Origin: Nocardioides mangrovicus | GTDB taxonomy: Bacteria; Actinomycetota; Actinomycetes; Propionibacteriales; Nocardioidaceae | NCBI RefSeq assembly: GCF_003674065.1 | Contig: NZ_RDBE01000001.1 | Location: forward strand, 92,567-156,566 | DNA: 64,000 bases | Reading direction: 5' to 3' | Shown: one piece after another, positions 51,016 to 64,000 of the stretch | Numbering within the stretch: position 1 is the stretch's first letter | Layout of the letters: each line of letters opens with the position of its first letter | The notes under the pieces: model-generated | Databases searched by the model: none | What the model was told of the DNA's origin: nothing | Seen by the model: only the letters and a program-made list of their open reading frames with translations | Program-made: the position numbers and the translations under genes

Positions 51016-52248
51016 TCACGCGGTGCCCGCGAGCACCGCGTCGGCCGCCCGCTGCCCACTCACCAGGGCGCCCTGGATGGACCCGGTGTCGCGGTGGTCG
51101 CCGCAGACCACGACGTCGCCCACCCGCACCGGCCGCGCGGTCGTGAACGGCGGCGGCTGCGCGGGCAGCGCGTCGGGCACCTCGTGGCGGGCGACCACCT
51201 CCCAGCCGCGCGCGTCGGCGCCGAGCAGCTCCGCGGCGTGGCGGCGCATCGCCGGCTCCTCGACCACCCGGCCCGGACCGAGCAGCGCCGAGCCCTGCAC
51301 CAGATGGCGGTCCGGCGGGGCGTAGCTGGGGGCCGCGTCCGAGACCACCGCGGTGTTCACCAGCGGCCCGGTCGGCCGGGCGCGGGCGTCGACGTGCAGC
51401 AGGTCGCTGCTCTCGGTCCGCTTCGCCGACCACCACACGGTCACCACGCCCTTGGTGGCCCTCGCCTCGACGCCGGTCAGACCGTGCGCCGCGCCGGCGT
51501 CCGTGGCGACGACGACGTGCGGGGCGCGCCAGGTGCCCTCGGTGGTGCTGACCTGCGAGCGACCGACGGCGGTGACCCGGTGCCCCAGCCGCACCCGGGC
51601 ACCGAGGGGCCGGGCCAGCTGCTCGGGCAGCGCCTGCATCCCCTCGGCCGGCAGCGCGGGGACCCCGCGCAGGAACGAGGACACCAGCAGCAGCGCGAAC
51701 CGGTCGGCGGTCGAGCCGTCGTCCTCCAGGAGCACACCGGCCAGGAACCCGTCGACCACCCGGCGCAGCACGCCGCGTGCGCCGGCGCGGTCGAGCGCCT
51801 CGCCGCGGGCGACGTCGTCGTGGGCCTCCAGAACCCGGGCGAGTGGGCCTCGGTGGGGGCGCAGCAGCGGCGCCACCCACCGCAGCAGGCCCAGCACCTC
51901 GCCGGGACGGGTCAGCGTGCTGGCCAGCGTGCCCGGCAGCAGACCGGGCTCGCGCAGCGGATGGCCGAGCATGACCCGCCCCTGCTCGGTCGCGGCCACC
52001 ACCCCGGCGCCGAACGCCTGAAGCCCCAGCGCGTCGACGTCGACCCACCGGCGGACCGCGGGGTAGGCGGGGTTGAGCAGCTGGAAGCCCCGGTCGACCA
52101 GGAAGCCGTCCACCCGGTCGGTGCGGATCCGGCCGCCGACCGCGTCCGCCGCCTCCAGCACCACCACCTCGCGACCGGCCTCGACCAGGGCTGCGGCGCA
52201 CCGCAGCCCGGCCAGTCCGGCGCCCACCACCACGACGTCGGCGTCCAC
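51016..52248 (-). CDS. FAD-dependent protoporphyrinogen oxidase-like/amine oxidase protein
   Basis: Flavoprotein of 410 aa: DVVVVGAGLAGLRCAAALVE binds FAD, EAADAVGGRIRTDRVDGF is the GG doublet motif, and VVCGDHRDTGSIQGALVSG the C-terminal FAD contact. The family includes phytoene desaturase-like and PPOX-like enzymes; no evidence places it in haem synthesis here. GTG 52248 starts the protein exactly at DADVVVVG; GTG 52284 would add twelve residues. Divergent from the rhodanese gene. Confidence 0.85.
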   Translation of the reverse strand: MDADVVVVGAGLAGLRCAAALVEAGREVVVLEAADAVGGRIRTDRVDGFLVDRGFQLLNPAYPAVRRWVDVDALGLQAFGAGVVAATEQGRVMLGHPLREPGLLPGTLASTLTRPGEVLGLLRWVAPLLRPHRGPLARVLEAHDDVARGEALDRAGARGVLRRVVDGFLAGVLLEDDGSTADRFALLLVSSFLRGVPALPAEGMQALPEQLARPLGARVRLGHRVTAVGRSQVSTTEGTWRAPHVVVATDAGAAHGLTGVEARATKGVVTVWWSAKRTESSDLLHVDARARPTGPLVNTAVVSDAAPSYAPPDRHLVQGSALLGPGRVVEEPAMRRHAAELLGADARGWEVVARHEVPDALPAQPPPFTTARPVRVGDVVVCGDHRDTGSIQGALVSGQRAADAVLAGTA

Positions 52249-52290
52249 GGCGGACCGGTACCCAGCCGAGCGCGGCTGACGCACCCCTGC

Positions 52291-52296
52291 CAGGCT
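52291..52296 (+). promoter_or_regulatory. candidate -10 element, leaderless (rhodanese gene)
   Basis: CAGGCT, six bases, then ATG 52303. Differs from TAGGCT of menG and the DUF4229 gene only in the first base; no ribosome-binding site. Confidence 0.45.
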
Positions 52297-52302
52297 CGGG
52301 GC

Positions 52303-52686
52303 ATGACCTCACCGGGCCGGAGCATCGAGGAGCTGCTGGACCAGGCGCGGAGCCGGCTGGACCGCCTCGACCCCCACCAGGCCCTCCAGGCACAGCAGGA
52401 CGGCGCGATGCTCGTCGACGTACGCCCGCAGGCCAATCGTGAGGCCGAGGGCGAGCTGCCCGGGGCGGTGGTGCTCGAGCGGATCGTGCTCGAGTGGCGG
52501 CTCGACCCCGCCAGCGACGCCCGGTTGGCGGAGGCCGCCTACGACCTGCAGGTGGTGGTGGTCTGCAACGAGGGCTATTCCTCCAGCCTGGCCGCGGCCA
52601 CGCTGCAGGGCCTCGGGCTCACCCGCGCGACCGACCTCGTCGGCGGCTTCCGCGCCTGGAAGGACGCCGGGCTGCCCACCGCTTAG
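52303..52686 (+). CDS. rhodanese-like domain protein
   Basis: Single rhodanese domain of 127 aa. LVDVRPQANREAEGELPGA is the N-terminal part, and VVCNEGYSSSLAA the active-site loop with the persulfide-forming Cys; AWKDAGLP closes the domain. Such proteins move sulfur or detoxify cyanide, and context gives no clear role. The stop overlaps the convergent formylglycine-generating enzyme stop by three bases. Confidence 0.9.
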   Translation: MTSPGRSIEELLDQARSRLDRLDPHQALQAQQDGAMLVDVRPQANREAEGELPGAVVLERIVLEWRLDPASDARLAEAAYDLQVVVVCNEGYSSSLAAATLQGLGLTRATDLVGGFRAWKDAGLPTA

Positions 52687-53570
52687 AGCGCGACGCGGAA
52701 CCCCTGGTTGCCGGTGGTGGAGTCGACGGTGGTAAAGGTGCGGGCCGAGACCCGGTAGCGGTTGCAGTAGGAGGCGTGGCACAGGTACGAGCCGCCCCGG
52801 ACGACCCGGGTGTCCGGCGTCGACCAGACGTCGGCCGTGTGCTCCCAGACGTTGCCGGAGGTGTTGAACAGCCCGTAGCCGTTGGGGGCGTACGCGGCCA
52901 CCGGCGCGGTGCCGGCGTAGCCGTCGGCGACGGTGTTCGAGGCCGGGAACTCGCCCTGCCAGATGTTGCACCGGTGCTCGCCGTCCGGTGTCAGCTCCTC
53001 GCCCCACGGGAACCTGGCGCCGACCAGCCCGCCGCGCGAGGCGTACTCCCACTCGGTCTCGGTGGGCAGCCGCAGCCGCGCCCACCGGCAGTAGGCGCGG
53101 GCGTCGGCGTGGGAGACGTGGACGACCGGGTGGTCCTCGCGGCCCGCCAGGGTGCTGCCGGGACCGTCGGGGCTGCGCCACGTGGCCCCCGCCACCGCCA
53201 GCCACCACGGCGCCTGCGCGGCTCGGTCGCCTTCCGCGGTCGCGAACGCCTCGAAGACGAACGACCAGCCGTAGCGCTCGGCGTCGGTGACGTGGCCGGT
53301 GGCCTCGACGAACGCGGCGAAGCGGTCGTTGCTCACGCAGACGGCGTCGATGGCGAAGGGCGCGACCTCGACCGACCGCACGGGCCCTTCGCCGTCGCCG
53401 GGTACGACGTCGGCGTCCTCGGAGCCCATCGCGAAGCGGCCGCCGGGGAGCGGAACGAGGCGGGCGCCGTCGTGGGCGGGGTGGGGGTTTCGAGACGGTT
53501 GCTGCGCAACATCCTTAATCACCGTCTCGACCACCGCCGGGTCGCGGCGGGGCGCACAGCACTCGCTCAC
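52683..53570 (-). CDS. formylglycine-generating enzyme (sulfatase maturation)
   Basis: Aerobic copper-dependent enzyme of 295 aa that converts the Cys of CxPxR in sulfatases to formylglycine. The core runs from about residue 38 (LVPLPGGRFAMGSED) to the end, with YASRGGLVGARFPWG, NIWQGEFP, YGLFNTSGNVWEH and the active-site pair Cys264 and Cys269 in GGSYLCHASYCNRYR. The GTG overlaps the upstream thioesterase stop by four bases, fixing the start. Oddity: residues 14-27 are encoded by a palindromic repeat (53491-53529), giving a non-homologous N-terminal extension. Client: the arylsulfatase at the window's right end. Confidence 0.93.
   Translation of the reverse strand: MSECCAPRRDPAVVETVIKDVAQQPSRNPHPAHDGARLVPLPGGRFAMGSEDADVVPGDGEGPVRSVEVAPFAIDAVCVSNDRFAAFVEATGHVTDAERYGWSFVFEAFATAEGDRAAQAPWWLAVAGATWRSPDGPGSTLAGREDHPVVHVSHADARAYCRWARLRLPTETEWEYASRGGLVGARFPWGEELTPDGEHRCNIWQGEFPASNTVADGYAGTAPVAAYAPNGYGLFNTSGNVWEHTADVWSTPDTRVVRGGSYLCHASYCNRYRVSARTFTTVDSTTGNQGFRVAL
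53491..53529. repeat. palindromic element in frame near the start of the formylglycine-generating enzyme gene
   Basis: CGAGACGGT (53491-53499) and ACCGTCTCG (53521-53529) are perfect 9-bp inverted arms. They enclose a second inverted repeat, GTTGC-tgc-GCAAC. The element encodes residues 14-27 of the enzyme. The same style of sequence (GTTTCGAC..., GCTGCTCAAC) appears degenerately in the nuoE-nuoF gap. Confidence 0.7.
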
Positions 53571-54028
53571 GAGACCAGGATGGACCTCGACGCCTCCGGC
53601 GGGGGCGGCACCCGGGCGGCCTCGATCGCCGCGGCCACCTCCGCGGGGAACGGTGTGGTGCGCGCGGTGGCCGTGTCCGGGTCGGTGCCGACGTGCACGC
53701 CGAGGATCTCCTCGGTCGCGCGCAGCGAGCCCGCGGCGTAGAGCTCGTGCCAGATCCACAGCAGCTTCGGCGTCGAGCCGATGACCCACGAGCGCGCCTC
53801 GAGCAGCTCGCCGGGGCCCACCTGGTCGAGGTAGCGCACGTGCGCCTCGACCGTGTACAGCGAGGCCTGTGCGGCCTCGCGGTAGGCCGGCCCCAGCCCG
53901 ACCGCGTCCATCACGGCGTCCGTGGCGTGGCCGAGCACCAGCACGTAGTACGGCTCGGAGAGGTGGCCGTTGTAGTCGATCCACTCCGCCAGCACCGGCT
54001 CGGACCAGACGGTGAGGGGGTCAGGCAC
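53567..54028 (-). CDS. thioesterase-like (hot-dog) protein, probable betainyl-CoA thioesterase
   Basis: Hot-dog-fold protein of 153 aa: WIDYNGHLSEPYYVLVLGHA is the 4HBT start with a conserved Asp/Asn, and TVEAHVRYLDQVGPGELLEA follows. Proteins of this type are found next to, or fused with, carnitine 3-dehydrogenase, where they hydrolyse betainyl-CoA to glycine betaine. Its GTG overlaps the carnitine dehydrogenase-like gene by 8 nt. The function is inferred from that context. It also couples to the formylglycine-generating enzyme gene downstream. Confidence 0.82.
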   Translation of the reverse strand: MPDPLTVWSEPVLAEWIDYNGHLSEPYYVLVLGHATDAVMDAVGLGPAYREAAQASLYTVEAHVRYLDQVGPGELLEARSWVIGSTPKLLWIWHELYAAGSLRATEEILGVHVGTDPDTATARTTPFPAEVAAAIEAARVPPPPEASRSILVS

Positions 54029-54977
54029 GTCCCAGCGCCCGCAGGATCGCGATGACGCCGGCGTCGCGCTCGGCCACCAGGTCGTCGATCGAGCGGCCGT
54101 CGGCCTCGCGCTCGCAGCCGTCGACGACGGCGTCGCGCAGCGCCGGGGTGAGCTCGGCCGAGACCAGCCGGGTCCACGGCGACTGCAGCGACGGCCCGAA
54201 GTGGTCGAGCATGTGCGCCATGCCGCCCTGCCCGCCGGCGAGGTGGAAGGTCAGCATCGGTCCGTGGATCGGCCAGCGCAGGCCGGGGCCGTCGGTGATC
54301 GAGAGGTCGATCTGCTCGACGGTGGCCTCACCGGCGTTCACCATGTGCAGCGCCTCGCGCCACAGCGCCTCCTGAAGCCGGTTGGCGATGAAGCCGGGCA
54401 CCTCGCGGTCCATGGTGATGACCGACTTGCCGACGTGGCGGTAGAAGTCGCCCGCCCAGGCCACCACCTCCGGCGAGGTGCGCTCGCTGCCCACCACCTC
54501 GACCAGGGGGATGAGGTACGGCGGGTTGAACGGGTGGCCGACCACCAGCCGCTCCGGGTGGTCGGCGAGGGTGTCCATCTCGCTCATGCCGTAGCCGGAC
54601 GTGGAGGAGCCGATCACCACGCCCTCGGGCGCCGCGGCGTCGAGGTCGGCGAGCAGCCGGCGCTTGAGCTCGAGGTCCTCCGGCGCGCTCTCCTGCACGA
54701 ACTCGGCGCCGGCCAGCGCCTTGTCCAGCTCCGGCTCGAAGCGCAGTCGTGACCGGTCGGCCCCGTCGGCCAGGCCCAGCTCCGTGAGCGCGGGCCACGC
54801 GGCGTCGACGACGTGCCGCAGCCGATCGTCGGCTCCGGGCGCCGGGTCCCAGGCGACGACGTCGTACCCGCGCGCGAGGAAGTACGCCGCCCAGCCTCCG
54901 CCGATGACGCCGACCCCGGCGCAGCAGACGGTGCGGACGTCGGCGACCGCGATCGGCGGCGTCATGCCCCGACTCAT
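54021..54977 (-). CDS. probable L-carnitine 3-dehydrogenase (3-hydroxyacyl-CoA dehydrogenase family)
   Basis: NAD-dependent dehydrogenase of 318 aa. GVGVIGGGWAAYFLARGYDV binds NAD, and GHPFNPPYLIPLVEVVGSER plus VPGFIANRLQEALWREALH carry the catalytic His/Glu region of the 3HCDH fold. Carnitine dehydrogenases belong here and oxidise L-carnitine to 3-dehydrocarnitine. Placement between a BKACE gene and a thioesterase gene is the pattern described for carnitine degradation, so I infer this substrate. The ATG overlaps the BKACE stop by four bases; ATG 54966 is an alternative. Confidence 0.85.
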   Translation of the reverse strand: MSRGMTPPIAVADVRTVCCAGVGVIGGGWAAYFLARGYDVVAWDPAPGADDRLRHVVDAAWPALTELGLADGADRSRLRFEPELDKALAGAEFVQESAPEDLELKRRLLADLDAAAPEGVVIGSSTSGYGMSEMDTLADHPERLVVGHPFNPPYLIPLVEVVGSERTSPEVVAWAGDFYRHVGKSVITMDREVPGFIANRLQEALWREALHMVNAGEATVEQIDLSITDGPGLRWPIHGPMLTFHLAGGQGGMAHMLDHFGPSLQSPWTRLVSAELTPALRDAVVDGCEREADGRSIDDLVAERDAGVIAILRALGRA

Positions 54978-55873
54978 GACCGTGGCCGCAGGTTGAGCAT
55001 CTCGCGGGCCTCGTCGGGCGTGGCCACGGAGGAGCCCATGGCCTCGACGATGGTCTTCGCCCGGTCGGCGAGCTGCGCGTTCGTGGCCTTGACGCCCTTG
55101 CTCAGGTAGAGGTTGTCCTCCAGCCCGACCCGGACGTGACCGCCCAGCAGCACCGACTGCGCCACCCACGGGAACTGCATGCGGCCCAGCGCGAACGAGG
55201 CCCAGTGCGCGCCCTCGGGCAGCTGCGCCACCATCGAGGCCAGCAGCGAGGAGTCGGCCGGGGCGCCGTAGGGGATGTCCATGCACAGCTGGTAGAGCGG
55301 GGGAGCGTCGATCAGCCCCTCCTCCACCAGGGTGTTGGCGAACCACAGGTGTCCGGTGTCGAAGATCTCCATCTCGCACCGCACTCCGAGATCCTGGATG
55401 CGCTTGGCACCCTCGCGCAGCATGTCGGGGGTGCTGACGTAGACCAGGCTGCCCTCGCCGAAGTTCAGGCTGCCGCAGTCCAGCGTGCAGATGTCGGGCA
55501 TCACCTTCTCCACGTGCTTGAGCCGCTCGACGCCGCTGACCAGGTCGGTGCCCTCGACGAAGGTGGTCGGGTCGTGCGGGTCGAGGTAGAGGTCGCCGCC
55601 CATGCCGGCGGTGGTGTTGATGATGACGTCGACGCCGCTCTCGCGGATCCGGTCGACGGCCTCGACGTAGAACGCGGTCTCGCGCGAACCCTGGCCGGTC
55701 TCGGGGTCGCGCACGTGCACGTGCACGACCGTGGCGCCGGCCTTCGCCGCGGCGATGCCCGACTCGGCGATCTGCTGCGGGGTGACGGGCACGTGCTCGG
55801 ACCTGCCGGTCGTGTCGCCGGCGCCGGTCAGGGCGCAGGTGATGATGACCTTGCGGTTGATGGCTGCTCTCAC
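54974..55873 (-). CDS. BKACE (DUF849) beta-keto acid cleavage enzyme, probable dehydrocarnitine cleavage
   Basis: Zinc enzyme of 299 aa: the Zn-binding VVHVHVRDPETGQGS (His51, His53), INTTAGMGG and EMEIFDTGHLWFANTLV are the DUF849 hallmarks. The family transfers a beta-keto acid's acetyl part with acetyl-CoA; one described group cleaves 3-dehydrocarnitine into betainyl-CoA and acetoacetate. With the dehydrogenase and thioesterase next door, that activity fits. GTG 55873 has GGAGGT six bases upstream. A TetR-type palindrome lies just upstream of its promoter region. Confidence 0.88.
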   Translation of the reverse strand: MRAAINRKVIITCALTGAGDTTGRSEHVPVTPQQIAESGIAAAKAGATVVHVHVRDPETGQGSRETAFYVEAVDRIRESGVDVIINTTAGMGGDLYLDPHDPTTFVEGTDLVSGVERLKHVEKVMPDICTLDCGSLNFGEGSLVYVSTPDMLREGAKRIQDLGVRCEMEIFDTGHLWFANTLVEEGLIDAPPLYQLCMDIPYGAPADSSLLASMVAQLPEGAHWASFALGRMQFPWVAQSVLLGGHVRVGLEDNLYLSKGVKATNAQLADRAKTIVEAMGSSVATPDEAREMLNLRPRS

Positions 55874-55894
55874 GGGATACCTCCGAGGATGGTG

Positions 55895-55910
55895 CTGATT
55901 GATCAGTCAG
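55895..55910. promoter_or_regulatory. TetR-type palindrome upstream of the BKACE gene
   Basis: CTGATTGATCAGTCAG is a near-perfect palindrome (one mismatch pair per arm), followed by another TCAG. Sites of this TGACTGATCA type are bound by many TetR/FadR-like repressors of acyl-CoA genes. No TetR gene lies in this cluster; the serine hydrolase gene ends 55 bases away. Confidence 0.5.
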
Positions 55911-55964
55911 TCAGTTGGGGGCGGAGCGACGGTGCTGGACCGCCGACGACGAGGTGGGGCGGTC

Positions 55965-57014
55965 TCAGCCAACGGCCGCTGCCACGAGGGGGAGACCGAG
56001 GTAGGACAGGTCGCGCTGCTGTCGGTCGACCCACGGGTCGTCGTAGGGCCACAGCGAGGTCTTGACGACGGCGACGCCGCGGTCGCGGTCGGCGTAGCCG
56101 AACTGGCCGCGGCTGCCGTCGGCGGTCACGCGCGAGCCGTCGGCGCTCAGCGGCCACCAGTGATAGCCGAATCCGGCGTGGGTGGTGATGCTGCTCGGCA
56201 GCCGGCCGGGCTCGAGCCAGGGCTGCGTGGGCGTCGAGGAGGCCTGCGCCCAGGCGGTGGGCTCCAGCTGCAGGGCGGCCAGCCGCAGCCAGTCCTCCGC
56301 ACACGCGGCCAGGCCGCCGCCGGCCAGCGCGACCCCGGCGACGTCGACGCCCACCACGGCGTCGCGGACGCAGCCGAGCTCGGCCCACAGGTCGCCCAGC
56401 GCCTCGGCGTAGGTCTGCCCGGTGGCCCGCTCGCGTGCCCAGTCGAGCACCTGGGAGTCGGCGGTGCTGTACTCCCACCGCGTGCCGGGTGGGTCCTGGG
56501 GACGCACCTGCACCAGCAGCTCGCGCGAGCGCTCCTGCGTGCCGCCGAAGCAGGCCACCAGCCGGGTGGCGGGTCCGTCGGGGTCGCGGTGGTCCTCGGT
56601 CCAGGCGGTGCCGGTGGTCATCGTCAGCAGGTGCTCGACGGTGCAGCCGGCGTAGCCGCTGCCGGCCAGCTCGGGCACCAGGTTGCCCACGACGTCGGTG
56701 ACGCGCAACGAGCCCGCGCCCACCGCCCGGCCGACCAGGTGGGCCAGCGCCGACTTGGTCATCGACGCCCCCAGCAGCAGCGAGCCCGGCCCCACGCCGT
56801 CGGCGTACCACTCGTGCACGACGCTGCCGCCGCTGAGCACCAGGAGCGAGGTGGAGTGGGTCTCGGTGACCCAGTCGGCGAACGGGCGCGAGCGCCCGGC
56901 GCCGGGGATCTCGACGTCGATCTCGCGCGGCGCCCGCTCCAGCGGACGCGGTGCGCTCGCGCGCACGACCTCGTGCCGCCGGGAGGCGTCCTCCTGCGGG
57001 TCGACGAACCTCAT
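55965..57014 (-). CDS. serine hydrolase, beta-lactamase/esterase family
   Basis: Class C beta-lactamase-fold protein of 349 aa without a signal peptide, so probably cytoplasmic. The nucleophile motif is SMTK (Ser84-Lys87), followed by the Tyr of YSTADSQ at the second catalytic position. Such proteins are commonly esterases or amidases rather than beta-lactamases. Between an ABC importer and carnitine genes, a plausible job is hydrolysis of an acyl ester such as acylcarnitine, which is inference. ATG 57014. Confidence 0.82.
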   Translation of the reverse strand: MRFVDPQEDASRRHEVVRASAPRPLERAPREIDVEIPGAGRSRPFADWVTETHSTSLLVLSGGSVVHEWYADGVGPGSLLLGASMTKSALAHLVGRAVGAGSLRVTDVVGNLVPELAGSGYAGCTVEHLLTMTTGTAWTEDHRDPDGPATRLVACFGGTQERSRELLVQVRPQDPPGTRWEYSTADSQVLDWARERATGQTYAEALGDLWAELGCVRDAVVGVDVAGVALAGGGLAACAEDWLRLAALQLEPTAWAQASSTPTQPWLEPGRLPSSITTHAGFGYHWWPLSADGSRVTADGSRGQFGYADRDRGVAVVKTSLWPYDDPWVDRQQRDLSYLGLPLVAAAVG

Positions 57015-57046
57015 CACGGAGAGGCGGGGCCGTTGCTGGCTGGACG

Positions 57047-58849
57047 TCAGTCGATCCTGGGACTGTTGGCCAGCAGCCGCTGGGTGTACTCCTGCTGCGG
57101 GCGGTCCATCACGTCGACCACGAAGCCGGACTCGACGACGTTGCCCGCGTTGAGGATCTGCACCCGGCTGGCGATGGAGCGCACCAGGGCCAGGTTGTGG
57201 GTCACGAAGAGCATGCTGATGCCGCGCGTCTGCCGCAGGTCCTCCAGCAGCGCCACGATCGAGCCCTGCACCGAGACGTCGAGCGCCGAGGTGATCTCGT
57301 CGCAGACCAGCAGGTCGGGCTCGGCGGCCAGCGCTCGCGCGATCGCCACCCGCTGCCGCTCGCCTCCGGAGAGCCGGCTGGCCTGGTAGCGCAGCACCGC
57401 AGGGCCCAGCGCCACCTGGTCGAGCAGCGCGACCACCCGGTCGGTGGCCTCCTTGCCCGAGGCGAGGCCGAACAGCTCCATCGGCCGTCGCACGATCTGC
57501 TCGATCGTCAGCCGCGGGTTCAGCGACAGGTAGGGGTTCTGGAAGATGTACTGCACGCGCTTGCGGTCCGAGGCGCTGCGCGAGCGCGAGCCCTTGCCCA
57601 GCTCGTTGCCCTCGAAGGTGATCGAGCCGGTCCACTCCTTGTGCAGCCCGCCGACGCAGCGCGAGATGGTGGTCTTGCCGCTGCCGGACTCGCCGACCAG
57701 CGCGACCACCTCGGCCTTGCCCACCTCGAAGCTGACGCCGTGCACGACCTCCGTGTGGCCGTAGAAGACCTTGAGGTCGCCCAGCGTGAGGATCGGCTCA
57801 CGGTGCTGGTTGGGGTCGGAGTCCGGCACCGTGCCCCGGGAGATGTCCCAGTGGCCGATCTGCTCACTGCGGATGCAGCGCACCAGGTGGTCCGGGGCCA
57901 CCTCGCGCAGCTCGGGCACACCCGCCGAGCACTCATCGATGGCGTAGGAGCAGCGGTCGTGGAACCGGCAGCCGTCGGGTCGCGCGCCCGGCGCCGGCGT
58001 ACGACCGGGGATGCCGGTGAGCGCCCGCGCCTGGCTCAGGTGCGGGATCGAGTCCAGCAGGGCGCGCGTGTAGGGGTGGGTCGGCTGGCCGAAGATGGTC
58101 TCGCGTGGCCCGAGCTCGGCGATCTGGCCGGCGTACATGACCGCGACCCGGTCGGCGATGTTGGAGATGACGGCCAGGTCGTGGGTGACGTAGAGCGCCG
58201 CGACGCCGTGGGAGCGGCACAGCTCGCCCATGGTCTGCAGCACCATGCCCTGGGTGGTGACGTCGAGGCCGGTGGTGGGCTCGTCGAGCACCAGCACCTT
58301 CGGCTTCGGCAGGAAGGCCATGGCCAGCGCCACCCGCTGCACCTGGCCGCCGGAGAGCTGGTGGGAGTAGCGGCGCAGGAACTCGTCGTCGTTGGGCAGG
58401 CCCACCTCGGCCAGCCCGTCGCGCGCGCCCTGCAGCCGTGAGGCGGGCGTGCCGATGCCGCGCAGCTCGAGCAGCTCGACGATCTGCTTGCCGATGCGGA
58501 TGCTGGGGTTGAGCGCCGCGGCCGGGTCCTGCGGCACGTAGGCGATCTCCTCGCCGCGCAGCTGCCGCACCTGCTGCCAGGGCAGGCCGAGCACGTCCTT
58601 GTCCTCGAAGAGGACCTTGCCCTTCTCGATCAGCGCGCCAGCGCGGGTGTAGCCGAGGAGCGCGGTGCCCACCGTGGTCTTGCCGCTGCCGGACTCGCCG
58701 ACCAGCCCGACCACCTCGCCGGGCTTGAGCACCAGGTCGATGTCGTCGACGACGTCGACGCCCGGCCGGGCGGTGAGCCCGATGCGCAGGTTCTGCACCG
58801 CGATGCCGGTGCCGGCCCGCTCCCGGTCGCTGCTCACCGTGGCGCTCAC
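57047..58849 (-). CDS. dipeptide/oligopeptide-type ABC transporter, fused DppD-DppF ATPase
   Basis: Two ATPase domains in one 600-aa chain. Domain 1 has VGLVGESGSGKTT (Walker A, 48-59), YSHQLSGGQVQRVALAMAF and LVLDEPTTGLD; its C-terminal part has the oligopeptide-binding cysteines (CRFHDRCSYAIDEC). Domain 2 starts near residue 350 with VALVGESGSGKTT, SRLSGGERQRVAIARAL and LLVCDEITSALD. Fusion of the usual dppD and dppF is seen in some actinobacteria. GTG 58849 overlaps the permease stop (GTGA). Confidence 0.94.
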   Translation of the reverse strand: MSATVSSDRERAGTGIAVQNLRIGLTARPGVDVVDDIDLVLKPGEVVGLVGESGSGKTTVGTALLGYTRAGALIEKGKVLFEDKDVLGLPWQQVRQLRGEEIAYVPQDPAAALNPSIRIGKQIVELLELRGIGTPASRLQGARDGLAEVGLPNDDEFLRRYSHQLSGGQVQRVALAMAFLPKPKVLVLDEPTTGLDVTTQGMVLQTMGELCRSHGVAALYVTHDLAVISNIADRVAVMYAGQIAELGPRETIFGQPTHPYTRALLDSIPHLSQARALTGIPGRTPAPGARPDGCRFHDRCSYAIDECSAGVPELREVAPDHLVRCIRSEQIGHWDISRGTVPDSDPNQHREPILTLGDLKVFYGHTEVVHGVSFEVGKAEVVALVGESGSGKTTISRCVGGLHKEWTGSITFEGNELGKGSRSRSASDRKRVQYIFQNPYLSLNPRLTIEQIVRRPMELFGLASGKEATDRVVALLDQVALGPAVLRYQASRLSGGERQRVAIARALAAEPDLLVCDEITSALDVSVQGSIVALLEDLRQTRGISMLFVTHNLALVRSIASRVQILNAGNVVESGFVVDVMDRPQQEYTQRLLANSPRID

Positions 58850-59724
58850 TCCGATCCCCCTCCGCGCTGGGCGACCTGGGCGACACCGTCGGCCATCAGG
58901 TTGGTGCCGACGGTGAACAGACCGATGATGAGCACCGGCGCCAGCACGGCCCAGGTCTGGATGGTCAGGCCGAGGCGGTTCTCGTTGATCATCTGGCCCC
59001 AGTTCGCGGCGTTCGGGTCGGTGGAGAAGCCGAGGAACCCCAGCGCGGCCACCAGACCGATGGAGTAGGTCAGGCGCAGCCCCGCCTCGGCGAGGAGCGG
59101 CGCGCTCATGTTGGGCAGCACCTCGGCCAGGATCACGCGCGAGCGCCTCTCGCCCAGCGCCTCGGCGGCGTAGACGAAGTCGCGCGAGACGATGCCGAGC
59201 GCGACGCCGCGAGCCAGCCGGGCCACGCGCGGGGCGTGGGAGATGCCGACCAGGATGATGATGATCCAGGCGCGCGGCTGGTTGACTGCGGTGAGCACGA
59301 CCAGCGAGAGCAGGATCTGCGGGAACGCGAGCGTCACGTCGTTGAGCCGCATGATCACCTCGTCCCACCAGCCGCCGGCGTAGGCCGCGACGACGCCGAT
59401 GAGCACGCCGAGCACCATGCCGAGCAGGGTGGCGAAGAGCGAGATGAGCAGGATGACCCGGCCGCCGTACAGCAGCCGCGTGAGGACGTCCTGTCCCAGG
59501 TAGTCGGTGCCGAAGAGGCCCTTGCTGGAGAACGTCGGGCCGACCACCTCGTTCTGGCCGTGGGGGGCCAGCAGCGGCCCGAACACGGCCAGCAGCACGA
59601 TGATCGCGGTGATCGTCAGGCCGACGGTGAACCGCTTCTGGTCCAGGGCGCGACGCAGCGTCGACTTCTCGGCGGGCGCGGGGGCCGGCGAGGGCCCGGG
59701 TGTGGGCTCGGAGACGGCGGTCAT
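58846..59724 (-). CDS. ABC transporter permease (DppC-type)
   Basis: Membrane permease of 292 aa with six helices; the cytoplasmic EAA loop is ALGERRSRVILAEVLPN. The N-terminal 25 residues are Pro/Ser-rich and disordered. Domain order, the LFGTDYLGQDVLTRLLYGG signature and its partner place it as DppC. The ATG overlaps the DppB stop by four bases (ATGA). Confidence 0.94.
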   Translation of the reverse strand: MTAVSEPTPGPSPAPAPAEKSTLRRALDQKRFTVGLTITAIIVLLAVFGPLLAPHGQNEVVGPTFSSKGLFGTDYLGQDVLTRLLYGGRVILLISLFATLLGMVLGVLIGVVAAYAGGWWDEVIMRLNDVTLAFPQILLSLVVLTAVNQPRAWIIIILVGISHAPRVARLARGVALGIVSRDFVYAAEALGERRSRVILAEVLPNMSAPLLAEAGLRLTYSIGLVAALGFLGFSTDPNAANWGQMINENRLGLTIQTWAVLAPVLIIGLFTVGTNLMADGVAQVAQRGGGSE

Positions 59725-60752
59725 GACGAGATCGCCGTCCTCGCGCGGGGGGTGAGCAGGATGGAGAGGACGTCGGCGATCAGGTTCACCAGCACGTAGA
59801 TGGCGGCGATGATCATGCTCAGCGCCTGCACCATCGAGACGTCGTGGTTGCGCACGGAGTCGACGAGCTGGAAGCCGACGCCGGGGTAGTTGTAGAGCGT
59901 CTCGACGACCACGACGCCGCCGGCCAGCCACGCGAGCTGCAGGGCGATCACCTGGATGCCGGGCACGAGCGCGTTGAGCAGGGCGTGCTTGCGCATGACC
60001 ACCCGCTCGGGGATGCCTTTGAGCCGCGCCAGCTCCACGTAGTCGCTGTCGAGCACCTCCAGCAGCGTCGAGCGCACGATGCGCGAGACGTACGGCGCCA
60101 CGGCCAGCACCAAGGTGGCGACCGGCAGCACCATCGCCTTCGGCTGGTCCCACGGGTGTCCGCCGGCGGCGACGAGGGTGACCGCCGGGAGCAGGTGGAA
60201 CACGGTGGTGGAGAACACCGCCACCAGCAAGATGCCGATGACGAACTCCGGCAGACCGGCCAGCGTGAGCAGGATGGTCTGGATGACGGTGTCTGGGCGC
60301 CGTCGCCGGTAGTTGGCCGAGAGCATCGCGATGCCGAAGGCCACCGGGATCATGACGATCGCCGAGACCAGCACCAGCACCAAGGTGTTGACCACGTTGC
60401 TGCCGATCAGCTCGCTGACCGGTCGCTGGCTGGCGATGGAGGTGCCCAGGTCGCCGGTGAAGAGGCCGCCGAGCCAGTGGAGGTAGCGGGTGACCAGCGG
60501 CTCGTCGAGGTTGAGCTGCGAGGTCAGCTGCGCCGCGCGTGCCTTGTCGGCGAGGTAGTCACGACCGAGGATCGCCTTGACCGGGTTGCCCAGTGACGAC
60601 GTCGCCACGTAGACGAGGATCGAGACCAGCCACAACGTGAGCACGGCCAGCCCGATGCGGCGCGCGAACCAGGACGCCCACGCCGCCGCGCCGTGACGGC
60701 CCGATGGCGGGGCGACCTCCTCCAGCGCGTCGGTGACGACGACGTCGGTCAC
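59721..60752 (-). CDS. ABC transporter permease (DppB-type)
   Basis: Six-helix permease of 343 aa. RRIGLAVLTLWLVSILVYV is the first helix, GDLGTSIASQRPVSELI the periplasmic signature, and ARLKGIPERVVMRKHALLNA the EAA loop that docks on the ATPase. GTG 60752 lies ten bases after the binding protein stop. Forms the channel with the DppC-type subunit. Confidence 0.94.
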   Translation of the reverse strand: MTDVVVTDALEEVAPPSGRHGAAAWASWFARRIGLAVLTLWLVSILVYVATSSLGNPVKAILGRDYLADKARAAQLTSQLNLDEPLVTRYLHWLGGLFTGDLGTSIASQRPVSELIGSNVVNTLVLVLVSAIVMIPVAFGIAMLSANYRRRRPDTVIQTILLTLAGLPEFVIGILLVAVFSTTVFHLLPAVTLVAAGGHPWDQPKAMVLPVATLVLAVAPYVSRIVRSTLLEVLDSDYVELARLKGIPERVVMRKHALLNALVPGIQVIALQLAWLAGGVVVVETLYNYPGVGFQLVDSVRNHDVSMVQALSMIIAAIYVLVNLIADVLSILLTPRARTAISS

Positions 60753-60761
60753 GACCCCGCC

Positions 60762-62330
60762 CTAGCTCGAGACCGACGCGGTGTTGAACTTGTAGTTGCC
60801 CAGTGGGAGGTACTTGCTCGGCTTGACCCCGGAGACCTTCGACGACGTCGCGTCGACCTGCTTGCGGAAGCCCCAGATGATGTAGCCGCCCTCGTTGTAC
60901 TCGATCTCCTGGGCGTCCTGCAGCAGCGTCTTGCGCTTGGCCTCGTCAGTCTCGGCCTGGGCCGAGGCGATCAGTCCGGCGAACTTGTCGTTGTTGAAGT
61001 GGGTCTCGTTGTACGTGCCGTTCTTCAGCGCGCACACCGCGGCCTGCGGGATGTAGTTGCGGGTGTTCCAGAAGTCCTGGGCGAAGGTGTAGCTGAGGTA
61101 GTCGTCGCCGTAGAACGGGTTCTTCTTCACCACGCTGACCTTGACCCCGGCCTTGGCCGCCTGCTGCACGAACAGCGAGGCACTGGCCGTGGCCACCGAG
61201 CCGATGTCGTCGCCGGTGAACAGCTGCACCGACAGGTCGGACTGCCCGGCCGCCTTGAGCAGTGACTTGGCCTGGTCGATGTCCTGCTCGCGCTGGGGTA
61301 GCTCGCTGGCGAAGGAGGGGTCGAACGGCGCGTAGAGATCGTTGCCCAGGCTGCCCTCGCCCGAGAGCGCCTGCTCGATCATCTGCTTGCGGTCGCAGAT
61401 CAGCCGCATCGCCTGGCGCACGCGGACGTCGCTGAACGGCTTCTGGTCGACGCGCATCGTGAAGGGGACCCAGGCGCCGGTCTCGGCCTCGACGATCTTG
61501 CCGGTCTTCTTCACCGAGCTCATCAGGTTGTACGGCAGGTTGTCCATGGTCTGGATCTGGCCCGCCGAGAGCGCATTCACCAAGGCGTTGGCGTCGGCGA
61601 AGTCCTGGATCTGCAGCTGGTCGACCTTGGCCTTGTCGCCCCAGTAGCCGTCGTAGCGCTCGAAGACGCTCTGCTTGCCCGGGGTGAAGGACTTGTACTT
61701 GAAGGCACCGGTGCCCACCGGGTTCTTCGGGTCGTAGTCGGTGGGGACGATGCCGAAGGTGTACTCGGCGAACAGCCAGTCGAGCACGGCGTAGGGCGTC
61801 TTGAGCGCGATGACGACCGTGCTGTCGTCGACCTTCTTGGTGCCGTCGAAGTCGATGAAGGTCGACAGGCCGGCGCCGGCGGAGCGGGGGTTCTTGGGGT
61901 CGGCGACGCGCTTGATGGAGAACAGGACGTCCTCGGGCGTCACGTCCTTGCCGTTGTGGAAGGTGACGCCCTTGCGCAGCTTCACGGTCCAGGTCTTGGC
62001 GTCCGAGGACGGCTCGATGGACTCCGCCAGCGCCGGTGCGATCTGGTAGTTGTCGTCCCAGAACAGCAGCGGCTCGTAGAGGTTGTTGATGCGGGCGATG
62101 TCGGCCGACTGCACGGGGCTGTGGGCGTCGAGGGTGTCCTTGCTGCTGCCGCCGCTGGTGCCGTGGATCAGCAGGCCGCCCGAGCCGCCGCCGCTGCCGC
62201 CGCTGCTCGAGCCGCCGCCGCACGCGGCGAGGAGCTGGCTGCCGCCGACCGCCGCAGCGGCGACGCCGCCCATGCGGAAGATGTCGCGTCGGGAGAACCG
62301 GGCACTGTCGAGAATCTCGTTGTTCGCCAT
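60762..62330 (-). CDS. ABC transporter substrate-binding lipoprotein (SBP_bac_5)
   Basis: Extracellular binding protein of 522 aa. The N-terminus combines a twin-arginine motif (SRRDIFRMGG, Arg14-Arg15) with a lipobox ending LLAAC (Cys37), so a Tat-exported lipoprotein is likely; a Gly/Ser linker follows. The body is a DppA/OppA-type clamshell (YEPLLFWDD, TWTVKLRKGVTFHNGKDVT are typical). Ligands of this family range from peptides to glycosides and quaternary amines; carnitine or a derivative is suggested only by neighbours. ATG 62330 has GGAGGTG. Divergent from the IclR gene. Confidence 0.93.
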   Translation of the reverse strand: MANNEILDSARFSRRDIFRMGGVAAAAVGGSQLLAACGGGSSSGGSGGGSGGLLIHGTSGGSSKDTLDAHSPVQSADIARINNLYEPLLFWDDNYQIAPALAESIEPSSDAKTWTVKLRKGVTFHNGKDVTPEDVLFSIKRVADPKNPRSAGAGLSTFIDFDGTKKVDDSTVVIALKTPYAVLDWLFAEYTFGIVPTDYDPKNPVGTGAFKYKSFTPGKQSVFERYDGYWGDKAKVDQLQIQDFADANALVNALSAGQIQTMDNLPYNLMSSVKKTGKIVEAETGAWVPFTMRVDQKPFSDVRVRQAMRLICDRKQMIEQALSGEGSLGNDLYAPFDPSFASELPQREQDIDQAKSLLKAAGQSDLSVQLFTGDDIGSVATASASLFVQQAAKAGVKVSVVKKNPFYGDDYLSYTFAQDFWNTRNYIPQAAVCALKNGTYNETHFNNDKFAGLIASAQAETDEAKRKTLLQDAQEIEYNEGGYIIWGFRKQVDATSSKVSGVKPSKYLPLGNYKFNTASVSS

Positions 62331-62331
62331 A

Positions 62332-62359
62332 CGAACACCTCCGTCTAGGATGCGAACAC
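62332..62359. promoter_or_regulatory. direct repeats in the importer/IclR divergent gap
   Basis: CGAACAC occurs at 62332-62338 and again at 62353-62359, 21 bp apart (two helical turns). TAGGAT (62346-62351) between them could be a -10 for the IclR gene. Plausible IclR binding site, unproven. Confidence 0.35.
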
Positions 62360-62400: not shown

Positions 62401-63198
62401 GTGGTTGCCCGAACCGTGACCCCGCGGACGTCTTCCGCCCCTAGTGGTCCAGACCGGTCCTCCTTCCGAGTGCAGTCCGTGGACCGGGCGGCGTCGCTGC
62501 TGCGCGCGGTGGCCGAGGCCAAGGCGGTCGGTGCCGGCACGACGGCGCTGGGCCGGACCTGTGGTGTCAACCGGGCCACCGCCTGGCGGATCCTGTCCAC
62601 CCTGCGCGGGCACGGACTGGTCGAGCAGGACCCGGCCAGCGGCCGGTGGAGCCTGGGCGCCGGGATCGTCGACCTGGTGCGCACGGCCGGTCTGGACGCC
62701 GTGCTCCACGAGGTGCACGAGGTGCTCGAGCACGTGGCGCTGCAGACCGGCGAGACCGCCGCGCTGGCCCAGCTGCGCAACGGCGTGCTGACCTACGTCG
62801 ACGAGGCCGCGCCCGCCGCCGTCGTTTCGGTGACCTGGGTCGACCGGCCGCTCAGCCTGCACGCCACCTCCACGGGCAAGGTCGTGCTGGCCTGGTCCGC
62901 CGAGCAGGAGGTCGAGCGGCTGCTGCCGCGGCGCCTGGAACGTTTCACCTCGGCGACGGTGACCGACCGCCGCCGGCTGCGCGCGGACCTCGACCGGTGC
63001 CGCGAGCGCGGCTACGCCACCTGTCGCGGCGAGTTCGACGAGTCGGCCTGGGGGGTCTCGGCCCCCGTCGTCGACCCGGTGGGCCGGCTGCTGGCGGTCG
63101 TGAGCATCTGGGGGCCACCGCCCCGCGTGGGCGCCGAGCGGTTCCCCGCGCTGGCCGAGGTCGTCCGCGCCGCGGCCGACCAGCTGGCGCCGGGCTGA
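62401..63198 (+). CDS. IclR family transcriptional regulator
   Basis: Regulator of 265 aa. Winged HTH near residues 22-80 (VQSVDRAASLLRAVAEAKAV, RTCGVNRATAWRILSTLRGH), then the effector-binding domain with HATSTGKVVLAW and RGEFDESAWGVSAPVVD. GTG 62401 is chosen because AAGGAGGG lies six bases upstream; TTG 62398 is too near. Divergent from the binding protein gene, so it likely controls the importer and the downstream catabolic genes in response to a substrate or intermediate. Confidence 0.93.
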   Translation: MVARTVTPRTSSAPSGPDRSSFRVQSVDRAASLLRAVAEAKAVGAGTTALGRTCGVNRATAWRILSTLRGHGLVEQDPASGRWSLGAGIVDLVRTAGLDAVLHEVHEVLEHVALQTGETAALAQLRNGVLTYVDEAAPAAVVSVTWVDRPLSLHATSTGKVVLAWSAEQEVERLLPRRLERFTSATVTDRRRLRADLDRCRERGYATCRGEFDESAWGVSAPVVDPVGRLLAVVSIWGPPPRVGAERFPALAEVVRAAADQLAPG

Positions 63199-63223: not shown

Positions 63224-64000
63224 CTAGTCGCGGATCCGGCTGGCCAGCAGCGCCTCGGCCTCGGCGTCCAGCGCGGTGCCCGGCGCCAGGTCGACCACCA
63301 CCTGGCGGATCTCGCCGGTGAAGGAGTTGCGCAGTGCCGGGTAGTCGTCGACCACCGGGCTGCCCCGGTCGATGCCGACGTTGAAGGTCTCGTCGAAGGC
63401 GAAGTAGTAGGCGGTCGTCTCCTCGACCCGTCCGCGGCCGACCAGGTCGCCGTCGAGCACGATCACCGCCTCGCCACCACTGCCGGGCGGGCCGCCGTCG
63501 TAGTCGAACTGCAGCTCCACCTCGTGCTCGCCGGGCCAGAGCACCTCGGTGGCCCGCACGACGGTGAGGTCCTTGCCGTAGCGGTTGTAGGCGTAGCAGG
63601 GCCGACCGTCGACGACGTAGAGCGACCAGCCGCCGAAGCGGCCGCCCTGGGCCACGAGCACGCCCTGGGTGGACTGGGGCGGGTGGTCGGCGGGGATGTC
63701 GAGCCGCACGGTGATCCGGTGGGTGCGGTTCTTGACGTTCGGCGCGGCCTCCTCCGACAGCCGGCCGCTGTGTGGGCCGAGCAGCATCCGGGTGCGGCCG
63801 TGGTGCAGGTCGTAGCGTCCGGCGAGCTCGGGGTTCTCGCGCTCGGTGACCCGGTCGTCCAGCGGGAGCACCTGGTACTTCTCGGCCTCGGCGTCGAACA
63901 GCGCCTGCAGCCGCGCCAGGCGCTCGGGATCGTCGGCGGCCACGTCGTGGGCCTGCGACCAGTCGGTGCCGGTGTCGTAGAGCTCCCAGGTGTCGGCGTC
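63224..64000 (-). CDS. arylsulfatase, C-terminal part (5' end outside the window)
   Basis: At least 258 residues of a type I sulfatase running off the right edge. The visible part starts in DADTWELYDTGTDWSQAHDV and continues FDAEAEKYQVLPLDDRVTER, the conserved middle of a large arylsulfatase subfamily, and ends in a beta-sandwich domain (VELQFDYDGGPPG and so on). The catalytic CxPxR segment would lie upstream of the window and should need formylglycine from the enzyme encoded at 52683-53570. Stop at 63224 is 25 bases from the convergent IclR stop. Confidence 0.88.
   Translation of the reverse strand, partial: DADTWELYDTGTDWSQAHDVAADDPERLARLQALFDAEAEKYQVLPLDDRVTERENPELAGRYDLHHGRTRMLLGPHSGRLSEEAAPNVKNRTHRITVRLDIPADHPPQSTQGVLVAQGGRFGGWSLYVVDGRPCYAYNRYGKDLTVVRATEVLWPGEHEVELQFDYDGGPPGSGGEAVIVLDGDLVGRGRVEETTAYYFAFDETFNVGIDRGSPVVDDYPALRNSFTGEIRQVVVDLAPGTALDAEAEALLASRIRD

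Follow-up and report, generated by a model that had tools for sequence, protein, structure and literature searches.

The DNA considered here (the window: 64,000 nucleotides of the 4.1-Mb genome of Nocardioides mangrovicus, G000:C1:92567-156566) carries an island of genes with predicted roles in the uptake of carnitine conjugates and the degradation of carnitine to glycine betaine, a salt protectant, together with a sulfatase and its putative activating enzyme. On the minus strand the gene for a binding protein is followed by those for two Opp/Dpp-type permeases, a fused double ATPase, a PF00144 hydrolase, a BKACE, a 3HCDH-type dehydrogenase, a thioesterase and a formylglycine-generating enzyme (FGE). 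A regulator gene lies divergent from this series, and the sulfatase gene lies beyond it. In window coordinates, the features are:

52683..53570, minus strand: FGE (sulfatase-activating), a true FGE by its cysteine pair, CHASYC (PF03781, 235 bits)
53567..54028, minus strand: thioesterase, predicted betainyl-CoA hydrolase (4HBT_2, PF13279, 74 bits)
54021..54977, minus strand: predicted L-carnitine 3-dehydrogenase of the 3HCDH fold (best family NF005471, 351 bits, cut-off 414)
54974..55873, minus strand: BKACE, predicted 3-dehydrocarnitine:acetyl-CoA cleavage enzyme (PF05853, 323 bits; in a clade of BKACEs adjacent to carnitine dehydrogenases, support 0.963)
55965..57014, minus strand: serine hydrolase (PF00144, 104 bits), predicted to hydrolyze esters in the cytosol
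57047..58849, minus strand: fused Opp/Dpp-type double ATPase (two PF00005 stretches and oligo_HPY)
58846..59724, minus strand: OppC/DppC-type permease (PF00528 and PF12911)
59721..60752, minus strand: OppB/DppB-type permease (PF00528; PF19300 barely above its cut-off)
60762..62330, minus strand: family-5 solute-binding protein (PF00496, 258 bits), its N terminus resembling a twin-arginine signal and a lipobox (motif recognized by eye)
62322..62336, minus strand: predicted IclR operator GTTCGTATGGCGAAC (pattern GTTCGNATNNYGMAC), across the codon annotated as the binding-protein start
about 62446..63198, plus strand: divergent IclR-type regulator, start uncertain (PF01614 and PF09339)
63224..64000, minus strand: 3' third of an arylsulfatase-type sulfatase gene (774 aa; PF00884, 211 bits), which runs beyond the window to G000:C1:158114 (L004:11791-14115)

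A sequence-only reading of this DNA had placed a BKACE, a 3HCDH, a thioesterase, a serine hydrolase, a full Dpp/Opp importer and a divergent IclR in the island. All of these were found where it had put them, and each exceeds the curated cut-off for its expected main Pfam family. Several neighboring island genes overlap by 4 to 8 bp, including the overlaps claimed for the carnitine core (8 bp between thioesterase and dehydrogenase, 4 bp between dehydrogenase and BKACE). The same reading overlooked both the FGE and the sulfatase; these two suggest that the conjugate is O-sulfated.

The set of enzymes for a cdhCAB-type pathway (BKACE, carnitine-dehydrogenase-type 3HCDH and thioesterase) is encoded together in the window. 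The subtype of the BKACE was placed with a midpoint-rooted tree of 89 sequences, found as relatives of the window BKACE by similarity, from which a third copy in the same genome (L003) was left out. The window protein, which is 87% identical to the BKACEs of Nocardioides aequoreus and Marmoricola sp. URHB0036, falls in the 55-member clade mentioned above, and for 51 of these members a carnitine dehydrogenase homolog is encoded within 4.5 kb. Its paralog L002 from the same genome lies far from it in the tree. Part of the clade is a Pseudomonas locus (L024) with an AraC+DJ-1 regulator, an OpuAC binding protein, BKACE, dehydrogenase and thioesterase, the latter three showing 61, 52, and 36% identity to those of the window; its dehydrogenase lies above the L-carnitine dehydrogenase cut-off (656 bits vs 414). 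Agrobacterium, Paracoccus and Rhizobium loci with a dehydrogenase annotated as carnitine 3-dehydrogenase belong to the same clade. The window thioesterase aligns with the thioesterase part (343-473) of the carnitine 3-dehydrogenase model NF005716 (E 2.6e-26, far under the cut-off for the whole protein). Judging from the protein families, the BKACE tree and the gene context, it is very likely that the island converts carnitine to glycine betaine, which agrees with the sequence-only reading.

Several relatives also have acyl-CoA dehydrogenases and hydratases adjoining the carnitine genes; for the hydratase in L015 the best family is crotonobetainyl-CoA hydratase (276 bits, cut-off 500). In L015 (1-12300), L017 and L113, a TetR-like gene, an SBP_bac_8-type (polyamine-like) importer, a flavin amine oxidase, a CoA ligase, an acyl-CoA dehydrogenase and a crotonobetainyl-CoA-hydratase-like gene lie beside the BKACE, dehydrogenase and thioesterase genes, and the sulfatase and serine hydrolase are absent from these loci. 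This architecture is perhaps a route from a trimethylated diamine via gamma-butyrobetaine.

The importer is made up of PF00496, PF00528, PF00005 and oligo_HPY domains, and no BCCT or OpuAC domain occurs among its families in the window. The pairing of an Opp-type importer with carnitine genes had been called unusual, but it recurs in two phyla. In Agrobacterium fabrum C58, Paracoccus aminophilus, P. denitrificans and Sulfitobacter plasmids, a single run of genes encodes BKACE and carnitine 3-dehydrogenase together with an alpha/beta hydrolase and the binding protein, ATPase and two permeases of the importer, and a Citricoccus plasmid cluster comprises BKACE, dehydrogenase, thioesterase, importer and a PF00144 hydrolase. 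The binding protein belongs to PF00496 in all five of these clusters; the hydrolase is an Abhydrolase_3 in the four alphaproteobacterial ones and a PF00144 member in Citricoccus, where it has no detectable similarity to the window hydrolase. The pairing is thus recurrent, though not universal, as a BCCT gene near the BKACE stands in for the importer at a Ruegeria locus (L161).

The recurrence of a hydrolase, from different families, next to a PF00496 importer and carnitine genes argues for an ester as the likely substrate. Together with locus L123 of G050, where importer and serine hydrolase form a block apart from the carnitine genes, it gives indirect support to the earlier suggestion of an acylated or larger carnitine derivative. 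On the basis of this block and of the operator-like word common to both gene groups in G113 (see below), importer, hydrolase and carnitine enzymes seem to form one functional set. Among 24 sequences (the window's included), at least 95% retain the SxxK residues Ser84 and Lys87 as well as Tyr182 of the serine hydrolase. Neither this protein nor the sulfatase has a strongly hydrophobic N terminus, so both should act in the cytosol, after uptake. A search beyond the family found the serine hydrolase in 4 of 393 genomes of the class, all four from the host's own family.

The sulfatase has the CxPxR signature (as CSPTR) and the expected metal-binding and catalytic residues at ten positions of the P. 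aeruginosa arylsulfatase (PAS). Among 36 aligned sulfatases (some of them fragments with gaps there), these positions show one Lys-to-Arg change. PAS is also the closest solved relative, both by sequence and by fold; of the AlphaFold model (mean pLDDT 72, active-site loops below 50) only this fold match was used. We rejected an identification as choline-sulfatase (BetC), with 51 bits for TIGR03417 against a cut-off of 433 and no PF12411 (Choline_sulf_C) domain. A succinate-semialdehyde-dehydrogenase-like gene (L004:14169-15548, named from reading its sequence) adjoins the sulfatase gene and is divergent from it.

The linkage of sulfatase and carnitine genes was surveyed in 197 genomes of the host's family, sampled evenly from a larger group. 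Carnitine-type BKACEs, defined at E <= 1e-90, occur in 21 of these; sulfatase matches at the same threshold are found in 60 genomes, and the clade of the island sulfatase (at least 63% identity) in 23, including a fragment in G065 and a partial sequence in G046. Both genes were present in 17 genomes, BKACE alone in four, the sulfatase alone in six and neither in 170 (Fisher's p = 4e-16, shared ancestry ignored). Where both are present, they lie on the same contig and at most 8.3 kb apart in ten genomes, about 0.8 Mb apart in three and on different contigs in four; in G062, one of the latter, the sulfatase (L101) adjoins IclR and importer genes. None of eight more distant sulfatases reported in BKACE genomes is near the BKACE (p = 0.008). 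Counting one locus per genome, the sulfatase is found in 14 of 26 distinct loci. This set omits duplicates (L011, L013, L018, L022), loci of other families and the 6.6-kb contig L121 of G030, which has no sulfatase, and lets L101 represent G062 although the BKACE of that genome sits on another contig.

The linked sulfatases differ in position. In the window, L117 and L118 they lie on the far side of IclR and converge with it; in L103-L106 they are behind IclR and on its strand. Others follow the thioesterase (L012, and L109 with a 4-bp overlap) or acyl-CoA dehydrogenase and hydratase genes (L016, L020, L107, L122). In the sulfatase tree they occupy three branches, with unlinked copies in between.

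The closest solved chain to the window FGE is the FGE 6s07 (E 5.5e-100), and the C-terminal cysteine pair of true FGEs is present (LCHASYCNRYRV aligned to LCHESYCNRYRV). Its gene directly follows the thioesterase gene in the window and in L018; in the window the two overlap by 4 bp if the FGE starts at the first GTG and lie about 32 bp apart from the start chosen by the gene caller. The genome encodes two PF03781 proteins, of which the island FGE alone has the cysteine pair. The other passes the EgtB cut-off, leaving the island FGE as the only one found in the genome. Two tandem Cys-type sulfatases with a CCPSR motif and lipoprotein-like N termini (G000:C19:195511-198384; L007, L008) are possible further clients. 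Directly below the FGE gene lie a rhodanese-like gene (about 52292-52686, plus strand) and an FAD-dependent amine-oxidase-like gene (51016-52284, minus strand), both named from reading the sequence.

The pattern of the operator-like word was derived from aligned regions between IclR and binding-protein genes, that is, from the importer promoters themselves. With at most one mismatch, GTTCGNATNNYGMAC has 36 matches in 1.216 Mb of loci, 26 of which adjoin the start of a binding-protein gene. Equivalents in 18 distinct loci besides the window stand next to a conserved TTGAC/TA-GTT promoter-like block. In G113, with importer and carnitine enzymes on different contigs (L108, L124), the same word precedes both (with one mismatch before the BKACE, L108). 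IclR is predicted to bind the word.

A sister island in G130 (L127:4766-19501, on contig C1) contains an importer operon of the same kind. This operon ends in a choline-sulfatase gene (L127:4766-6325; 740 bits, cut-off 433), which shares 4 bp with the ATPase gene. The operator-like word is present with one mismatch. Divergent from the operon are genes for a serine hydrolase, IclR, a BKACE of another subtype, carnitine dehydrogenase, thioesterases, an acyl-CoA dehydrogenase and a CoA ligase. The BKACE (NF053538, 465 bits, cut-off 430) is encoded beside a dehydrogenase 63% identical to that of the window; at this locus the BKACE subtype is exchanged but the dehydrogenase kept, and the same dehydrogenase type is likewise accompanied by another BKACE subtype in L128. 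Choline-sulfatases occur in 11 of the 197 genomes. If sulfate esters were irrelevant to these islands, the recruitment of an unrelated sulfatase would be hard to explain, albeit in a single case. A rifampin ADP-ribosyltransferase family gene (PF12120, L127:4286-4720) is convergent with the choline-sulfatase gene.

We favor, with a confidence that barely passes even, a reading in which the Opp-type importer brings in acylcarnitine-type conjugates, some of them O-sulfated. The FGE-activated arylsulfatase would take off the O-sulfate, where present, in the cytosol, and the serine hydrolase would there cleave the acyl ester and free carnitine. Dehydrogenase, BKACE (with acetyl-CoA) and thioesterase would then degrade carnitine to glycine betaine and acetoacetate, while IclR would control the importer operon from the conserved word. 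Our estimates for this and the other readings are judgements; the rival readings partly overlap, and the estimates need not add up to certainty.

Candidate substrates of this kind exist. According to the available text of a 2026 preprint, which terms sulfated acylcarnitines poorly documented, dihydroferuloylcarnitine was identified in human urine along with its 4-O-sulfate, the latter in 252 participants (PMC13060134). A molecule such as 4-O-sulfodihydroferuloylcarnitine would need just the set of tools seen here, a roomy importer, an arylsulfatase, an esterase and carnitine breakdown; other O-sulfated conjugates are equally possible. Our literature search on carnitine sulfate and sulfated acylcarnitines, in which this preprint was the sole relevant match, retrieved no report of a bacterium using them. 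That the island is the first recognized bacterial system to eat sulfated acylcarnitines (e.g., the urinary aryl-sulfated phenylpropanoyl carnitines), taking them up whole and using an arylsulfatase matured by the island FGE and a beta-lactamase-fold esterase before conversion to glycine betaine, is a specific proposal that we regard as somewhat unlikely.

Several observations weigh against the favored uptake and desulfation of carnitine conjugates. The counts that link sulfatase and carnitine genes share ancestry. In six of the 23 genomes with the sulfatase clade there is no carnitine BKACE and in three more the BKACE is about 0.8 Mb away. No sulfatase was found with two phmmer queries (E <= 1e-4) in 67 loci (L023-L089, not all of them carnitine loci), so that the sulfate link is seen only in the host's family. 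The window sulfatase is probably outside the importer transcript, as the opposite-strand IclR gene lies between them, and no operator-like word was found within 220 bp before 29 sulfatase genes (three with next to no upstream sequence); control of the sulfatases by the IclR operator was therefore discarded. Importer and sulfatase are not a strict pair either, since a genome-wide search found the importer in G050, G068 and G113 (the latter two fragmented), which have no sulfatase. The importer is present but the serine hydrolase is not in L016, L100, L109 and L110. The dehydrogenase of the window scores under its curated cut-off, and the BKACE of the sister island is of another subtype. With two more Cys-type sulfatases in the genome, the FGE is not a maturase for the island sulfatase alone, and no FGE was found at E <= 1e-50 in the sulfatase-bearing genomes G008, G010 and G031. 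The CSPTR sulfatases of these genomes (L090 in G008, L097 in G010, L091 in G031) may have another maturase or a missed FGE, or be inactive.

Some of these points, namely the absence of sulfatases from L023-L089, the lack of the operator-like word before the sulfatases and the sulfatases that lack a BKACE or lie distant from it, fit an ordinary island for carnitine and short-chain acylcarnitines, with the sulfatase and FGE as bystanders that scavenge sulfate or act on other arylsulfates. We consider this a real possibility, with a likelihood of about one third. It accounts poorly for a linkage that involves three branches of the sulfatase tree, differing gene orders and gene overlaps in L105 and L109, and for the failure of any of the eight other reported sulfatases to show it. 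The position of the FGE gene directly after that of the thioesterase in two loci, and the choline-sulfatase of the sister island, also speak against it.

That choline-sulfatase, encoded within the importer operon, would rather suit a general quaternary-ammonium importer, with free carnitine, choline-O-sulfate and gamma-butyrobetaine all leading to glycine betaine and no carnitine-sulfate conjugate being involved. The genes for an acyl-CoA route beside several relatives fit this as well, and a free-carnitine ABC importer has been verified by mutants in Ruegeria pomeroyi, according to the available text of PMC10130141. The window sulfatase, however, scores far below the choline-sulfatase cut-off and resembles an arylsulfatase, and the recurrent ester hydrolase is left unexplained; we find this reading improbable, although it is compatible with the others. 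It is very improbable that the island serves another gamma-substituted 3-hydroxy acid instead of carnitine: the low dehydrogenase score and the BKACEs of another subtype in L127 and L128 would allow it, but the window BKACE shares its clade with a Pseudomonas cdhC-type locus and with BKACEs beside dehydrogenases that are annotated as carnitine dehydrogenase (and in L152 and L024 also tested as such), and the thioesterase matches the carnitine-dehydrogenase fusion.

If uptake and desulfation of carnitine conjugates is correct, the island names an importer, a sulfatase and an esterase for sulfated acylcarnitines. It would also suggest a substrate class for the recurrent Opp-type importers next to carnitine genes, and a testable natural role for the large arylsulfatases of the host's actinobacterial family.

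Compared with known systems, the near-complete carnitine island of the window is of a familiar type; the variant seen here has a sulfatase and its activator in addition and thereby points to sulfated carnitine conjugates. PAS (1hdh, 4cxk) is the closest solved protein to the sulfatase in sequence and fold and shares its catalytic residues, whereas the window protein has about 220 extra C-terminal residues and 28-30% identity over the aligned part. The clusters of Agrobacterium fabrum C58, Paracoccus aminophilus, P. denitrificans and Sulfitobacter resemble the window in that the genes for BKACE, carnitine 3-dehydrogenase, an ester hydrolase and a PF00496 importer stand together in a single run. 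They differ in a dehydrogenase fused to the thioesterase (tested in L152), a GlxA or HTH-type regulator and an Abhydrolase_3 in place of PF00144, and no sulfatase is annotated within the stretches. The Citricoccus plasmid cluster shares BKACE, dehydrogenase, thioesterase, PF00496 importer and a PF00144 hydrolase with the window, but the hydrolase has no detectable similarity to the window's, the regulator is of the TetR type and no sulfatase is annotated within the stretch. The acylcarnitine hydrolase HocS has an alpha/beta-hydrolase fold; the PF00144 hydrolase of the window lies outside it and may act alike without membership.

In P. aeruginosa, the caiX-cdhCAB-hocS operon serves hydrolysis of short-chain acylcarnitines and degradation of carnitine to glycine betaine, as far as the available text of PMC5806209 describes it, and the Pseudomonas locus L024 has the layout of caiX-cdhCAB given there. 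According to the same text, the operon differs from the window in its binding protein CaiX, which works with CbcWV and not with an Opp importer, in its AraC-family regulator and in a gene content that includes no sulfatase or FGE (PMC5806209). Its hydrolase also belongs to another family. The order of the BKACE, carnitine dehydrogenase and thioesterase genes is that of the window. In the available description the operon is further like the window in including a hydrolase, there one for short-chain acylcarnitines, and in having a divergent regulator (PMC5806209).

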